Assembly (NCBI GenBank): GCA_026391255.1
Contig: JAPLDU010000124.1
Coordinates: 18,259 to 59,642, forward strand
DNA: 41,384 nucleotides
DNA from: Bacteroidia bacterium
Lineage (GTDB): Bacteria > Bacteroidota > Bacteroidia > Bacteroidales > JAPLDU01
Direction of reading: 5' to 3'
Below the pieces are notes generated by a model. The model worked only from the letters and a program-made list of their open reading frames with translations, was not told the DNA's origin and ran no database searches. Within the stretch, counting starts at the first letter, position 1; the number at the start of each line of letters is the position of its first letter. A program made the position numbers and the translations under genes. Of the stretch, positions 1 to 41,384 are shown one piece after another.

Positions 1-39
1 TTGCCAAAACACATCAAGTTTTCAGAAATAAGATACTAA
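1..39 (+). repeat. Right end of dispersed repeat, copy A (partial)
   Basis: These first 39 bases match, with about four differences, the right-hand ends of the two longer repeat copies at 11362-11654 and 35391-35592. The shared core runs from TTGCCAAAAC through TTTCAGAAATAAGATACTAA. The rest of the copy lies outside the window to the left. Bases 40-183 between here and the next gene are AT-rich and hold nothing else I can name. Confidence 0.8.
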
Positions 40-11139: not shown

Positions 11140-11361
11140 TCCAAAAAAAACTATGCCTTATCTGTAAAATATTTTATAATTGCCTTATATAATATACTTT
11201 ACAGTCGATTTAGTTTAGAAAATTAATAGCCAGCAACAACAGTTACCACGAATCATTAAAATTTTTTACTTTGAAATCTCAATTTGTAACTATTCAGGTT
11301 GTTTATACTGTAGACTTTTAGGAGTGATGAATTATGAGTTATGAATTATGAGTAATTACCT
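11140..11361. other. Intergenic region upstream of topA, no gene seen
   Basis: AT-rich DNA of 222 bases. At 11289-11318 it has a stretch matching 23770-23800 (TAACTATTCAGGTTGTTTA, then ACTG). At 11325-11355 it has an imperfect repeat of ATGAATTATGAGTT. No coding region is supported. Confidence 0.5.
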
Positions 11362-11654
11362 AACCTGGATGAGCCAGAACCAAACAAGAAATCGCAAATC
11401 TCAATCCGCCGTGGCGGAACAAATAACAAATAAATATCAATCAACAAATAACAAATTCTAAACCTGTGTATGATCTGGAAGAACGGACTTTTCAGTTTGC
11501 AAAGCGAGTAAGATTACATATAAAGAAACTTCCAAATAATATCGCGAATATTTCGTATTTGAATTTTTGATATTGTTTATTATTTGTTTTTTGTGATTTG
11601 TTTTTTGGATTTTTTTGCCAAAACGCGTCAAGATTTCAGAAATAAGATATTAAT
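11362..11654 (+). repeat. Dispersed repeat, copy B, holding a four-helix-bundle gene relic
   Basis: Both ends match copy C (35391-35592). The left end starts AACCTGGATGAGCCAG and the right end finishes GCCAAAACGCGTCAAG...AGATATTAAT. The left AT-rich arm (CCAAACAAGAAATC... about 11380-11455) is partly complementary to the right arm (about 11560-11610, ending TTTGTGATTTG...TTTTGG), giving a long imperfect stem. Compared with copy C, copy B has an extra ~90-base middle segment, which encodes the relic at 11460-11552, and a small TCCGCC/GGCGGA hairpin at 11405-11418. This looks like an element that normally carries a complete four-helix-bundle gene (inference). Confidence 0.75.
11460..11552 (+). 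pseudogene. Relic of four-helix-bundle (23S rRNA IVS-type) protein gene
   Basis: In one frame the DNA reads KPVYDLEERTFQFAKRV, then RLHIKKLPNNIANI, before running into repeat sequence and a stop at 11568. This is the start of the four-helix-bundle family known from 23S rRNA intervening sequences (PF05635/TIGR02436), whose members typically begin with YDLEERT-F-FAK and are about 120 residues long. Only about 31 residues remain, there is no ATG in frame, and everything after helix 1 is missing. I recognised the match from family knowledge and did not search for it. The gene is a remnant that lies inside repeat copy B. Confidence 0.72.
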
Positions 11655-13637: not shown

Positions 13638-13693
13638 TGATACCCGATACTTGATACCTGATACTTGATACTTGATACTTGATACCTGAAATC
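13638..13693 (+). repeat. Heptamer tandem repeat TGATACY, seven to eight units
   Basis: Seven 7-base units TGATACC/TGATACT (the second reads CGATACT) run without gaps from 13638 to 13686, followed by a decayed eighth unit. The tract ends three bases before the tyrS ATG at 13696, so it forms the whole immediate leader of tyrS. The rest of the 13517-13695 gap holds degenerate TGAGAATGTGAA-like and TCATCACTCAT-like repeats and no gene. Confidence 0.9.
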
Positions 13694-19201: not shown

Positions 19202-19915
19202 ATGGAATCCAACCAAGTAAAAAGTCATATCAGCAAGCAGGAGTTTGATGAGGACAAAGGCTTTCCTGCAGGTGTATTAAGAGATGATTTGTTTGAGTTT
19301 ATCAAAAAGGAATATCCTGATCTGAAGCCTGACCATTTCATTACAATGGAAGAGCTGAACATATACCGCCGGAAATTGCTGACTTCCCTTGTAAGCCAGG
19401 AGTTGGGCGAAGTGACCAAACTCGAGGAGGATGTGCTGGATTCAATTCAACATAACCGCCTATTATCGGAAAATATTGAACCAGATATTGAAGAGCACTT
19501 TACATTCGGGCAAAGAATTGCAGATAAGATCGCTGAATTCGGTGGTAGCTGGACTTTTATCATCAGTTTTTTTGTATTCTTTTCCATATGGATGATTATC
19601 AATATAATAGCATTTTCTACGCATCCTTTCGATCCTTATCCTTTCATCCTGCTGAACCTGATCCTATCCTGCCTGGCAGCAATCCAGGCGCCAATCATCA
19701 TGATGAGCCAAAACAGGAAGGAACAGAAAGACCGCCAGCGCAGTGAACATGATTACATGGTAAACCTGAAGGCAGAACTTGAGATAAAATTACTCAACGA
19801 AAAAATTGATCATCTGCTGATTTACCAGAACAAACGCTTTCTTGAGATCCAGCAGATACAGGCAGATTTCCTGGAGGATATTTATGAGGAAATCAAAAAG
19901 AATCCGAAGATTTGA
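19202..19915 (+). CDS. DUF1003 membrane protein
   Basis: A 237-residue protein with a hydrophilic N-terminal half, two adjacent transmembrane helices (about 119-140 and 148-168), and a charged helical tail predicted to form coiled coil. The DUF1003 core is seen in FGQRIADKIAEFGGSWTFII, FDPYPFILLNLILSC and AIQAPIIMMSQNRKEQKDR. The family is widespread, sits in the inner membrane, and has no agreed function. The N-terminal region (residues 1-95) contains CxxC-free helical sequence, with LKPDHFITMEELNIYRRKLL before the core. It has its own promoter box and is convergent with the PorE-like gene. The stop codon lies inside a GATTTGA repeat. Confidence 0.88.
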   Translation: MESNQVKSHISKQEFDEDKGFPAGVLRDDLFEFIKKEYPDLKPDHFITMEELNIYRRKLLTSLVSQELGEVTKLEEDVLDSIQHNRLLSENIEPDIEEHFTFGQRIADKIAEFGGSWTFIISFFVFFSIWMIINIIAFSTHPFDPYPFILLNLILSCLAAIQAPIIMMSQNRKEQKDRQRSEHDYMVNLKAELEIKLLNEKIDHLLIYQNKRFLEIQQIQADFLEDIYEEIKKNPKI

Positions 19916-20112
19916 GGATTTGAAGATTTGAAGATTTGAAAATGAAAAAACTATTATCTGAAATAGTTAAAATATTGGAATTTATGAATATAGAAAATGT
20001 AAAAAAAATTTCACGTCATTCTCATTTGTTTTTTAATAATTCATTATTTCAATCGCACTATAATTAAATCATTCATCCTCAAATTTTCAAATTTTCAAAT
20101 CTTCAAATCTCA
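19907..20112. repeat. Inverted GATTTGAA / TTCAAATC tracts between convergent genes
   Basis: At 19907-19942 there are four units of (A)AGATTTGA, with the DUF1003 stop TGA embedded in the first. At 20073-20112 lies the reverse complement, four units of TTCAAATYT, ending just before the stop codon of the minus-strand PorE-like gene. The arms are about 35 bases each and flank 130 bases of AT-rich DNA. They could form one long stem that serves both transcripts. Confidence 0.8.
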
Positions 20113-27191: not shown

Positions 27192-27305
27192 ATGAATTAC
27201 GAATTACGAGTTACGAATTACGAATTATGAATTTTGAACCTTGAACTCTGAACCTTGAACTCTGTACTCTGGACTATTGACTATGGACTATCAACTATGG
27301 ACTTC
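27192..27305. repeat. Mixed short tandem repeats between M14 gene and ychF
   Basis: Three different repeats sit end to end. They are GAATTAC(G) units (27193-27230), TTGAACCTTGAACTCTGAAC-like units (27234-27266) and GACTATGGACTAT-like units (27270-27300). They fill the whole gap between the ychF stop and the M14 ATG, leaving no visible promoter for the M14 gene. Confidence 0.85.
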
Positions 27306-35129: not shown

Positions 35130-35330
35130 TTACGAGTTACGACTTACGAATTACGAAGTACGAATTACCAGCGATGGAGTGACTGAGTGACAAGGTGACT
35201 GAGAGACTGAGTGATGGTGTGACGAAGAGACAGAGAGACGAAGACACTGAGAGACGGAGTTTCCTACTCCCCCTTGGCGAATGGGGCACGGGGGATTGAG
35301 AAAGACAGAACGACGAAGCAACTACCCATT
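35130..35330. repeat. Mixed short tandem repeats upstream of nadK
   Basis: TACGAATTACGA-type 7-base units (35131-35168) are followed by GAGTGACTGAGTGACAAG-type units (35176-35260). A decayed GC-rich block (CCCCCTTGGCGAATGGGG..., 35269-35300) closes the tract. No gene is seen here. Confidence 0.8.
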
Positions 35331-35390
35331 CCGAAATAAATCTACTTCCTGATAAAGTCTGTTATGTGAACTTGCCCGGAGGCTTAACCC

Positions 35391-35592
35391 AACCTGGACG
35401 AGCCAGATCCAAACAAGAAATCACAAATCTCAAAATACAAATAACAAATAAATATCAATCAACAAAAAGACAAATTCAAAGTAGTCTGTTTCGTATTTGA
35501 AATTTTGATATTGCTTATTATTTGATTTTTGTGATTTGTTTTTTGGAATTTTTTGCCAAAACGCGTCAAGATTTCAGAAATAAGATACTAAT
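35391..35592 (+). repeat. Dispersed repeat, copy C, without internal gene
   Basis: A 202-base copy that starts AACCTGGACGAGCCAG and ends GCCAAAACGCGTCAAG...AGATACTAAT. It matches copy B at both ends but lacks the four-helix-bundle relic. The left arm (35409-35460) and right arm (35496-35545) are imperfect inverted repeats. Its right end reaches into the last five bases of the lipoprotein gene at 35588, including its stop codon. Confidence 0.8.
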
Positions 35593-39600: not shown

Positions 39601-41384
39601 CGGCATGAAGTGGTGCATATGGCTGGCCAACCACAGCGGTACCCGTAACGATTGTTCCGCAGGCATCTGTCACGGTTACAGTATAATTTCCGGCAGCAAG
39701 ACTGTCAATAGATTGGGTTGTCTCACCATTGCTCCATAAATAGGTAAATGGCGGCATACCGTCTGTGACAGTCACTCCGGCGCTTCCCATGTAATCATCG
39801 AAACAATTCAGGTCATTGATATTAAATGTCAGTTCCATATCGGTAATCACTACTTCCATAACACAGGTGCTCGTGTTACCGTGGATATCAGTGACTGTCC
39901 AGATTACCTTGGTTACCCCGCCGGTATAAGTACCGCTTGCATCCGCCGTTCCATTGAAACTGTTAACCACTGACAGTACACCACAATTATCTGATACCAA
40001 AGCTGGTGGTACATGAACATAGTAAGATGGAGTACAGGGTGGTACAAGAATTGAAATATTCAACGGACAACTAATGATTGGTGCTTCGTTGTCGAGAACA
40101 ACCACCTGGGTTGAACAGGTACTGGTATTACCGTGAATGTCAGTGACGGTCCAGGTGATGATTGTTGTTCCCACCGGATAAATTCCACTGGCATTTCCTG
40201 TTCCTGTAAAGTTGTTGATCACTGAAGCTACTCCGCAATTATCACCTGTAACCGGAACCGGTACTGGTACATTTGCATGACAATAGCCCGGATCATTTGA
40301 TACTGTAATTAACGGTACGCAACTAATTGTAGGAGGCTCATGATCACTCACTGTCACTGTTTGCGAGCAGGTAGCTGTATTGCCGCAACCATCGGTCACC
40401 ATCCAGATCACATTAGTTGTACCATACAGGAATATAGCAGGTGCATTGTTATTGATATAATCCACACTGCAGTTATCATGAGTCTGGGGCAAACCTAAAT
40501 TAATACCTGTTGCTGAACAATTTAAATAATTAGGTTCCACGATCACAGGCGCCGGACATACAATTGTTGGGTTAGTGATATCATGCACCGTGATCGTTTG
40601 CAGGCAGGTTGAGTAGTTGCCACAGTCATCCGTTGCTTTCCAGGTGCGGGAGATCGTATAGTTGCCTGAGCATATCCCCGGGATAATTACATCGGTATGT
40701 GTTATCACAGGTGAGGCAGTGCAATTATCCGTAGCTGTTGCTGTTCCGGTATTTGCCGGGTTACTTGGATCCTGGCAATTAATTGTCACATCGCCCGGAC
40801 ATGAGATGATTGGGTTAGTCACATCATTGACAGTGATGGTCTGCACGAAGTTATCGCTTGTATTACCACAACCATCGGTAAAGTTCCAGGTGCGCACTCT
40901 TACATAAGCATTGGCACAACTGATATCCGGGGTGGTTACATCACTTACTAAATGTATGGCCGGGCTGGCAGTACAGTTATCCGTTGCTGACGGGACTAAT
41001 GCCAACGCTGACGTTATGCCTGATGTGTTACTACACTCAAGACTGGCATCCAGTGATCCGGCTGTGGTGGTGATCACAGGCGCTGTATGGTCATTAACAG
41101 TGATGGTCTGCACAAAGTTATCGCTCGTGTTTCCACAACCATCTGTAAAGTTCCAGGTACGAACTCTTACATAGGCATTGGCACAACTGATATCCGGGGT
41201 GGTTACATCACTTACTAAATGTATGGTTGGAGTTACCGTGCAGTTATCCGTTGCTGACGGGACTAATGCCAACGCTGCCGTTATGCCTGATAAGTTGCTG
41301 CATTCAAGGGTAGCATCCAATGTTCCGGCCGAAGTGGTGATCACAGGCGCTGTATGGTCATTGACAGTGATTGTCTGCACGAAG
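36620..41384 (-). CDS. Giant HYR/SprB-repeat adhesin with T9SS sorting domain (5' end outside window)
   Basis: The last 1,587 codons of a very large surface protein. The frame is open to the right edge of the window, so the true start is not seen. Counting from base 41380, residues 1-510 are HYR-type Ig-like modules (TDGCGNT, TVNDHTAPVI, CS-rich). Residues 515-1075 hold about eight SprB-type repeats (SYTVLWSNGATTQDLSGL-like, GTYSVTVTDANGC). Residues 1080-1495 have two copies of a GDYIGVFY.../GDEVAAFSPDGKLVGS domain, with two GWNIMS/GWSILG modules between them. The last ~85 residues are a type A sorting domain (YQNMPNPFSVNTSIRFYLPE ... GVYSYKF). It is a probable T9SS cargo and adhesin. The gene ends at a strong terminator. 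Confidence 0.92.
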   Translation of the reverse strand, partial: FVQTITVNDHTAPVITTSAGTLDATLECSNLSGITAALALVPSATDNCTVTPTIHLVSDVTTPDISCANAYVRVRTWNFTDGCGNTSDNFVQTITVNDHTAPVITTTAGSLDASLECSNTSGITSALALVPSATDNCTASPAIHLVSDVTTPDISCANAYVRVRTWNFTDGCGNTSDNFVQTITVNDVTNPIISCPGDVTINCQDPSNPANTGTATATDNCTASPVITHTDVIIPGICSGNYTISRTWKATDDCGNYSTCLQTITVHDITNPTIVCPAPVIVEPNYLNCSATGINLGLPQTHDNCSVDYINNNAPAIFLYGTTNVIWMVTDGCGNTATCSQTVTVSDHEPPTISCVPLITVSNDPGYCHANVPVPVPVTGDNCGVASVINNFTGTGNASGIYPVGTTIITWTVTDIHGNTSTCSTQVVVLDNEAPIISCPLNISILVPPCTPSYYVHVPPALVSDNCGVLSVVNSFNGTADASGTYTGGVTKVIWTVTDIHGNTSTCVMEVVITDMELTFNINDLNCFDDYMGSAGVTVTDGMPPFTYLWSNGETTQSIDSLAAGNYTVTVTDACGTIVTGTAVVGQPYAPLHAGTITGHNISCYGANDGYFLMTAAGGLPPYAFSIDNINFVYVDTFSMGYLPPATYWVSILDANNCVIIVPVVIHEPDPLVPSAVISNIDCNGNHNGMIDLTITGGTPSCTLPAYTVLWSNGATTQDLSGLAPGTYSVTVIDTNGCTTTATYTITQPDALSIVINSGNISCYGVNIGAINILVSGGTSPYTYHWNNGSTIQNLTGLPSGNYSVTVTDANGCHAFASATINQSSPVTIDLVSTGNLCYGQVDGTIAVSNISALVPPVTYQWSNGSTAASLTGIGAGNYCVVVTDSNGCIGSGCENVTAPASPVSMTAQISNVNCYGGNDGIIAIHAFGGTLPYYGFTWSGITTVGCNTVVIPGASTFIPCCSTINFTVDDLQAGTYYFTVTDANHCIGVDTFVVEQPAHPLHIDNAAITDVDVVAGISGAVNIFVCCGTFPYTYWWENANGDWVSSAEDLFDVPAGTYTVTVTDANGCTATGSYTVHTNALPDWNYYNTGYNHTIYVPLNAVPFLETGDYIGVFYDSLGTLACGGYTRFQGQATSIAAWGEDGIVPNTGFDPGEVFTFKFWKLNTGAEYFAKPVYNLTFPQDSTFVVDGLSGLLSLTPYTVLDSQLVDLRNGWNIMSTYLLPVHSDIGIVFNPVITNVVIVKDWLGNVLWPAYSLNLIGNMTLGQGYKVKMSSSRILAVYGYSIVPEFTHVNIPSGWSILGYLRKSPAQIQTVMNSIVNEIIIMKDQDGYVYWPQLQINSIGNMLPGRGYQIKLATPQIFFYPPNGMLGPLVKNTFDYNTRHFAVFHNTGVNMTVGIPLYAWNVQPDIGDEVAAFSPDGKLVGSTVFDGGSLSLAIWGDDDQTGGTDGMIPQSIFTLKLWHIASATEEQIVVELWQTGNDRFTEDGISIVEKLDNIIPQTPGYSVYQNMPNPFSVNTSIRFYLPEAGHVYIRTYNVVGALIELKVSEDFTAGEHVIELNMENYAPGVYSYKFDCNGFTDIKPMVKY
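40847..41380 (-). repeat. Two near-identical 267-base tandem repeats inside the adhesin gene
   Basis: Repeat 1 (41114-41380) and repeat 2 (40847-41113) each encode 89 residues (QTITVNDHTAPVITT ... CGNTSDNFV) and differ at only about ten residues. Since the frame is open at the window edge, more copies probably follow. The third unit (from 40846) is a clearly diverged HYR module. Confidence 0.92.

Follow-up and report, generated by a model that had tools for sequence, protein, structure and literature searches.

The intervening sequences (IVSs) of 23S rRNA known from Coxiella, Leptospira and Brucella carry within them an open reading frame (ORF) of the four-helix-bundle type (PF05635/TIGR02436), and their ends are complementary to each other and make a stem. 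Elements of the IS200/IS605 and REP/RAYT kinds are extragenic, contain hairpins, are preceded by a constant motif in the 5′ flank and leave no target duplication. The DGR protein Avd, which also has a four-helix-bundle fold, is a pentamer, and the cyanobacterial STRR are heptamer repeats, that is 7-nt units arranged in tandem between genes.

The IVS of Coxiella measures 428 nt, and the mobility of IVSs has been proposed since the early 1990s, for which Burgin 1990 and Ralph and McClelland 1993 are cited (PMC4990558, in excerpt). Some other rRNA IVSs encode transposases (PMC2672173, in excerpt). TAACTGA repeats have been described from Beggiatoaceae, Cyanobacteria and Bacteroidetes, with a patchy, horizontal-looking distribution and without a known mechanism (PMC4679880, in excerpt), and intergenic 7-nt tandem repeats are likewise found as the heptamer elements of Geobacter (PMC2700814, in excerpt). 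A term search of the main texts of the latter two papers gave no mention of a four-helix bundle, and among the matches listed from the open-access literature, available only in part, nothing relevant was found on four-helix-bundle genes as mobile elements or in association with inverted, interspersed or heptamer repeats.

The family described here was noticed in a stretch of 41,384 nt from a Bacteroidia genome (C79:18259-59642), which as a whole is referred to as the window. It shares with the 23S rRNA IVSs the PF05635/TIGR02436 ORF inside (a likeness that held when tested), the size class, and the complementary ends that form a stem, here the arms, as seen from the consensus fold and the arm tests; it differs from them in lying outside rRNA (none in the window, 0 of 46 loci), in reaching about 100 copies by way of gene-less derivatives, and in having arms of 7-nt repeats. 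Unlike the transposase-coding rRNA IVSs, it has no transposase. As with miniature inverted-repeat elements (MITEs), there is a short, gene-less, multi-copy form that possesses both ends of the gene-bearing form, which was also confirmed; however, the gene-bearing parent lacks a transposase, there is no target duplication, and long, imperfect fold-back arms take the place of exact terminal repeats. The absence of target duplication, the 5′ flank CCYAA, the hairpins, the extragenic position and a PF05635 number that tracks the number of Y1 transposases recall IS200/IS605 and REP/RAYT, yet no Y1 gene was found in cis, and the RAYT-like genes of this genome have a separate set of hairpin repeats, which are different and without significant end homology to the family. 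The fold resembles that of Avd, but no reverse transcriptase (RT) match was found in the genome and Avd scores no higher than generic bundles. Intergenic 7-nt tandem repeats are common to the heptamer repeats and to this family, whereas here the heptads are complementary arms around a four-helix-bundle gene.

A multi-copy hairpin with a gene between its arms and a location outside rRNA indicates a free-standing, transposase-less fold-back element that is kin to the 23S rRNA IVSs. The kinship in protein and architecture is clear, although by location the element is not an IVS, and its description as a fold-back element with MITE-like derivatives is well supported. Taken together with mobility, we consider it probable that these are small free-standing mobile elements, each built of a four-helix-bundle gene between complementary arms and accompanied by MITE-like derivatives. 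The anatomy, copy number, common borders, deletion series, the position of the tested loci outside rRNA, the occupancy in relatives and the spread over phyla are established by direct observation.

Copies in the window and in the genome

The source genome comprises 4.08 Mb in 161 contigs, with 97.5% completeness and 2.9% contamination. An initial annotation, made from the sequence alone, had recognized three sites in the window with a common right end, two of them with both ends in common, and BLASTN bears this out: copies B and C align with 95% identity along 104 bp at the right end and with 80% along 101 bp at the left end, and copy A, of which only the right end is present, matches C at 92% over 39 bp (Table 1). 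Copy A was left incomplete because the two bases that precede it read N in the genome assembly. Copy B had been credited with about 31 codons from the N-terminal part of the gene; the remnant runs to 34 in-frame codons (ITNSKPVYDLEERTFQFAK...) with the start codon changed from ATG to ATA, and at the deletion junction (184|444 on the 550-nt stretch L042:1366-1915) it jumps to the right arm. Copy C was thought to have lost the gene part completely, which proved incorrect, since a remnant of five codons with a mutated start is kept at the common deletion junction. The palindrome in the left arm of copy B, or a near copy of it, occurs also in L137, L061 and L105, in the left arm and at more than one position.

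Table 1. Coordinates of the three family copies and their parts within the window
Feature	Position	Strand	Remarks
Copy A	1..39	+	right end only; truncated by window start
Copy B	11359..11653	+	CCTAA flank motif 11359-11363, core 11364-11650, terminal TAA 11651-11653; internal-deletion derivative
Copy B, 5′-terminal small hairpin CTGG-loop-CCAG	11364..11377	+	from sequence and the fold of the family consensus
Copy B, 14-bp palindrome TCCGCCGTGGCGGA nested in left arm	11405..11418	.	
Copy B, PF05635 gene remnant, 34 codons	11448..11549	+	start codon lost; breaks at 184, resumes at 444 of L042:1366-1915
Copy B, right arm and right end	11551..11653	+	BLASTN match between window copies
Copy C	35388..35591	+	CCCAA flank motif 35388-35392, core 35393-35588, terminal TAA; amplified gene-less form of ~196 bp
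Copy C, gene start/end remnant at common deletion junction	35467..35484	+	family consensus ATGACAAATTCAAAGTAG; start mutated in C

Further copies with identical borders, which the initial annotation had proposed to seek by BLASTN, are abundant in the genome. The right-end pattern with at most 3 mismatches occurs at 135 places, and at none for a reversed-pattern control. With copy C as query there are 40 near full-length matches in the same sense (C included, 91-100% identity), these being the scored subset of 243 first-look candidates, and the other 11 matches to it in its own genome are short and antisense. For delimitation, 112 merged pieces around the listed places (296 kb) were used and profiles were built of both ends, giving 108 left and 108 right ends and 104 pairs; these were corrected to 103, since one C154 copy with an inverted middle had paired on both strands and its '+' reading was left out. 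The middle of L073 (C154:1243-1438) reads in the opposite orientation while the ends stay constant, which is what a flip between the inverted arms should produce.

Most of the paired copies (87 of 103) are internal-deletion forms of 180-215 bp. By a loose pattern, 79 of these 87 fit the common junction and 8 retain more of the start of the gene, which implies that a second deletion form has also multiplied. The consensus runs from CCTGGACGAGCCAG... to ...TTTCAGAAATAAGATAC, with CCYAA before it (88-94% per position) and TAA after it; the flanks are otherwise unrelated, apart from being A/T-rich at positions -10 to -7. Whether CCYAA and TAA are part of the element or of the target cannot be said from one genome. 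The common 196-bp form retains the first and last codons of the gene, with the consensus ATGACAAATTC followed by AAAGTAG. Longer copies have other deletions, which on L042:1366-1915 fall at 160|449, 135|426, 94|384, 97|336 and 186|405, so that with that of copy B there are at least six besides the common one, in line with the MITE-like internal-deletion derivatives first suggested.

The expected intact gene of about 120 codons between the same arms is present as well. One complete copy (L042, 538 bp) consists of left arm, a PF05635 gene of 119 aa and right arm, the complete form being ~550 bp, and in five further copies with the gene a contig end cuts the element short; these are L043, L044, L046, L048 and L045, the last of which has one in-frame stop. 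No transposase had been seen at the outset, and PF05635 is indeed the sole gene of the intact copy. Among 66 aligned short copies the highest pair identity is 96% and the median 90%, and by the former the burst of copying is not very recent; the identity and covariation figures rest on 66 of 85 short copies, with L146 and L130, whose left flank is common with another copy, among those omitted. Two pairs of copies with the same left flank (C42:5052 and C42:80866, C153:82 and C153:1887) look like segmental duplications that carried the element along.

The genome has 18 PF05635 matches, 16 of them above cut-off; of the 18, one lies in the complete copy and five in the copies cut by contig ends. 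The intact gene matches both PF05635 (45.5 bits versus a cut-off of 33.8) and TIGR02436 (69.4 versus 24), and its AlphaFold model consists of four helices with a pLDDT of 94. The best matches among solved structures are the S23-family proteins 2RLD (Z 16.0) and 2GSC (Z 15.7), and a sequence profile search finds 2RLD alone. Unrelated bundles reach at most 13.2 (1yo7), and structures of Avd and the DGR ribonucleoprotein 12.3 (8ub7) and 11.5 (4dwl); since unrelated helical bundles score as high, the similarity to Avd is by itself not decisive. Pectin methylesterase inhibitors and copper storage proteins, which also appear as structural neighbours, were taken as generic bundles.

Folding, genomic placement and target sites

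As RNA, the consensus is predicted to form a small hairpin at its 5′ end and a long A+T-rich stem whose loop contains the gene remnant. The energy of this fold is -47.9 kcal/mol (z -4.6), a value that none of 200 shuffles equalled, and folded as DNA the consensus has a z of -3.2. The arms had been described as imperfect inverted repeats that form a structured shell, and this long hairpin around the gene remnant agrees with that description. For the intact copy the fold barely stands out from those of shuffled sequences (z -1.6; 6 of 100 as good). None of 11 predicted pairs has compensatory changes among the 66 short copies, so there is no sign of selection on the fold within the family; the short copies have the appearance of descendants in decay and not of RNAs that are each under selection. 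Scans with Rfam 15 at gathering score gave no match on the window or on the intact-copy locus L042, and on 46 four-helix-bundle loci they gave no rRNA and one tRNA as the sole match. An RNA-family explanation was rejected on this basis, and the claim of a free-standing element outside rRNA stands for the loci tested.

None of the 103 copies lies inside an ORF of at least 120 aa. The upstream gene has the same direction as the element in 64 of the 89 copies with both neighbours callable (binomial p 4e-5), with a median gap of 46 nt from its stop to the copy, and the direction of the downstream gene is unbiased (46 versus 43). A target-site duplication was not found in 576 length/offset combinations over 103 copies, where the largest excess was 8 versus 2.3 expected (for a 3-mer), nor did GC skew indicate a replication-strand bias of the copies (intercept -0.002, s.e. 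0.005).

Occupied and empty sites are observed in relatives with the same architecture, and none for the element family of the window itself, because the 59 relatives compared all belong to other families of the order. For one intergenic spot in Flavobacterium, a search of 199 genomes gave at least 8 with the element; 196 have a match to the query in some portion, which among the matches listed is nearly always the neighbouring gene on the left, and in genome G191 the flanks lie 8 bp apart versus 511 in the query. Reading of 31 loci at this spot showed the element in 8, a left arm only in one (L301) and a gene-less heptad hairpin in another (L306); in the remainder no element was seen, and some of these end early or differ. 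In cyanobacterial plasmids the element lies between cas2 and cas1 in two records and the two genes abut in two others, although no clean junction is seen and cas1 differs at its end. In 14 of the 59 genomes of relatives in the order, all from other families, DNA matches reach E<=0.001; that in G013 is the best, with 81% over about 85 bp.

Other four-helix-bundle loci and their spread

Several other PF05635 genes of the same genome are flanked by different, again inverted arms, some of which recur elsewhere without the gene. Arms were tested by comparing the 220 nt upstream of a gene with the reverse complement of the 220 nt downstream. In the genome itself and in relatives of the order, 30 of 38 loci (4 of 42 with short flanks being left out) score above the 95th percentile of 73 control ORFs, and 27 score above every one of these controls. 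A cross-phylum set, made of the best 80 of at least 544 relatives, was compared with 305 control ORFs: 72 of the 80 loci lie above the 95th percentile of these controls, 23 above the 99th and 5 above the highest value (p 6e-36). Against 51 stricter controls, genes flanked by intergenic sequence on either side, the loci have a median of 33 versus 16 (p 2e-14), but only 21 of the 80 lie above the 95th percentile of these controls and 3 above the highest value. Intact genes in unrelated flanks had been named in advance as an observation that would refute the element. Of the PF05635 matches in the genome, 12 others (11 over cut-off) do have different flanks, but for 10 of them the arms are once more inverted, with scores beyond the 95th percentile of the controls, and several of these arms recur elsewhere.

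The arms are composed of degenerate 7-nt repeats. In the 80-locus set the mean self-match at lag 7 is 0.435 upstream and 0.451 downstream versus 0.276 in controls, with echoes at lags 14 and 21, and the controls stay at 0.26-0.29 throughout lags 2-24. Typical left arms read CAAATTCCAAATAACAAAT... or CGAAATCCGAAGCACG..., those of cyanobacterial plasmids GTAAAAA or AATCGTA/AATCCCC, and from locus to locus the arm sequence varies while complementarity is retained. The heptad test is weaker per locus, with 49 of 80 above the control 95th percentile in either flank, and against the small intergenic control set only 3 of 80 lie above, although the shift holds (p 2e-9). Within the window, positions 19897-20110 hold a second type of element, in which GATTTGA-type repeats, ~130 bp of other sequence and complementary CAAATCT-type repeats follow one another, and its arms match those of the four-helix-bundle genes L037/L038. 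Further 7-nt (or 14-nt) arrays lie at 13638-13689, 27192-27303, 35130-35168, 11318-11353 and 1429-1454, with the units TGATACT, GAATTAC, TTACGAA, TTATGAG and ACTTTCA.

The best 80 of the at least 544 protein relatives are of the same subfamily, with 58-88% amino acid identity in the best segment, and the 69 labelled rows among them bear 22 phylum labels, one archaeal; a caveat is that bins can be mixed. The closest relative of L042 among the 80 is a Delongbacteria record (L190, 88%, on a starred branch), which has both arms of the family, including the left border with the preceding CCTAA; its right arm is interrupted and the last part of the right end is unmatched. L261, which has an in-frame stop, was left out of alignment A2. 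In the protein tree, for which 69 of 81 rows had a phylum, there are 29 phylum changes versus a shuffled mean of 42.5 (0 of 200 shuffles as low), and 9 of 78 branches are starred. Given this clustering and the small number of supported branches, the case for transfer between phyla comes from the high identity and not from the tree. The window itself looks, by inference from a T9SS sorting domain, like Bacteroidota; at 40824-41384 a large protein with such a domain contains tandem repeats of 267 bp (2.1 copies, 88%).

Phage records gave 1 weak match and plasmid records 9. In three Planktothrix plasmids a four-helix-bundle gene follows a drmD-type helicase gene, where an Oscillatoria plasmid has another small ORF, and in Gloeocapsa and a Chloroflexota plasmid it lies between DUF1156 and Swt1-HEPN genes (these cases being loci L270-L272, L281 and L283). 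In such plasmid defence-type operons the genes perhaps have a domesticated role.

Possible routes of mobility and rival explanations

How the element moves has not been demonstrated, and a hairpin handled by a Y1 transposase in trans is our best guess. The protein, which has the S23 pentamer fold, would, by inference, bind the folded arms as RNA or single-stranded DNA. The single-stranded hairpin would then be handled in trans by a Y1 transposase of the host (IS200/IS605/RAYT-type), with the four-helix protein as partner, and would presumably insert 3′ of a CCYAA-like site without target duplication. Internal deletions gave rise to gene-less derivatives, one of which, of ~196 bp, multiplied in MITE-like fashion to most of the ~100 copies, and the complete copy is inferred to have supplied a factor in trans. 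The Y1 step taken alone, with cutting and recognition by Y1 only inferred, is put forward tentatively and with more doubt than confidence.

The step draws on a correlation across 149 genomes of the order, in which the counts of PF05635 genes and of Y1 transposases rise together (rho 0.63; Fisher p 2e-8), Y1 being present in 29 of the 30 genomes with at least 8 PF05635 genes versus 69 of 119 others. The partial correlation for Y1 is 0.53 given genome size and DDE, and that for DDE is 0.05 given size and Y1 (genome sizes covered 140 and 144 of the 149 genomes in the two correlation analyses). The genomes are not independent, and so this is only a lead. A Y1 gene in cis was rejected: none was found in 127 four-helix-bundle loci or 78 family-copy loci (1-3 kb flanks, phmmer E<=1e-4), and no significant family end was found in Y1 loci, which have REPs of their own. 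One Y1 match far below cut-off (L189, 14.5 versus 23 bits) lies ~0.5 kb from a copy. Four RAYT-like Y1 transposase genes (L184-L187) have their own hairpin repeats nearby, and L187 has an in-frame stop and a run of N before the gene. The absent replication-strand bias, which a Y1 route might be expected to produce, also counts against it.

The same element might need no transposase at all if the pentamer and host replication and repair suffice, the pentamer binding the folded single-stranded arms and promoting strand invasion or annealing at CCYAA-like microhomology. The sole gene of the intact element being a four-helix-bundle gene, the lack of Y1 matches in the 127 loci with such genes and of target duplications, and the deletions and inner inversion of L073, which fit hairpin-mediated slippage, all speak for this; however, we know of no member of the four-helix-bundle (S23/IVP) protein family that cuts or joins DNA, and the link of copy number to Y1 genes is left unexplained, for which reasons we regard it as doubtful, if still to be reckoned with. 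Retro-mobility, in which an RT in trans copies the folded RNA and the protein acts like Avd, could appeal to the fold similarity to Avd and the DGR ribonucleoprotein and to the position of copies downstream of genes and in sense. It is very improbable, and RT in trans was rejected, as RVT_1 (PF00078) has no match at E<=1e-5 in this 97.5%-complete genome and PF05635 number does not follow RT number (rho 0.10; partial -0.13 given size), 54 of the 110 positive genomes having no RT.

Other readings deny mobility or the family itself. A structural or regulatory repeat, terminator- or REP-like, could have been spread by recombination, with an ordinary gene between repeats by chance, and the intergenic position of all 103 copies by the ORF test, their bias to the position after a stop codon and the strong consensus fold would suit it. 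Yet the gene lies within the family's own borders and is deleted in graded fashion, the same arrangement recurs with unrelated arm sequences, relatives have occupied and empty sites and the copies lack compensatory changes, so that a non-mobile repeat is improbable. That repeats from mixed genomes were brought together in binning or assembly has next to no weight: the bin has 161 contigs and 2.9% contamination and five gene copies lie at contig ends, but the copies are spread over dozens of contigs, and breaks at repeats are the expected effect of a real repeat.

With a mobile fold-back element as the preferred reading, a wider proposal can be made for the genes commonly annotated 'four helix bundle protein' in environmental bacteria and some archaea. 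Most of them may be the single gene of an unrecognized class of mobile element, a transposase-less heptad-repeat hairpin with the pentamer as mobility factor, with the 23S rRNA IVS as a particular instance that inserted into rRNA, and with many of the heptamer repeats between genes (cyanobacterial STRR, TAACTGA arrays) as its gene-less remains; this is a conjecture that we think more likely to fail than to hold. The family described here also supplies a function-level hypothesis for this common and unexplained annotation and a possible source of puzzling bacterial heptamer repeats. The mobility of the 23S rRNA IVSs and the role of the IVS protein have been open questions since the early 1990s (PMC4990558, in excerpt), and both can now be put to the test on a relative that stands free of rRNA, occurs in many copies and is represented by intact, deleted and empty states.
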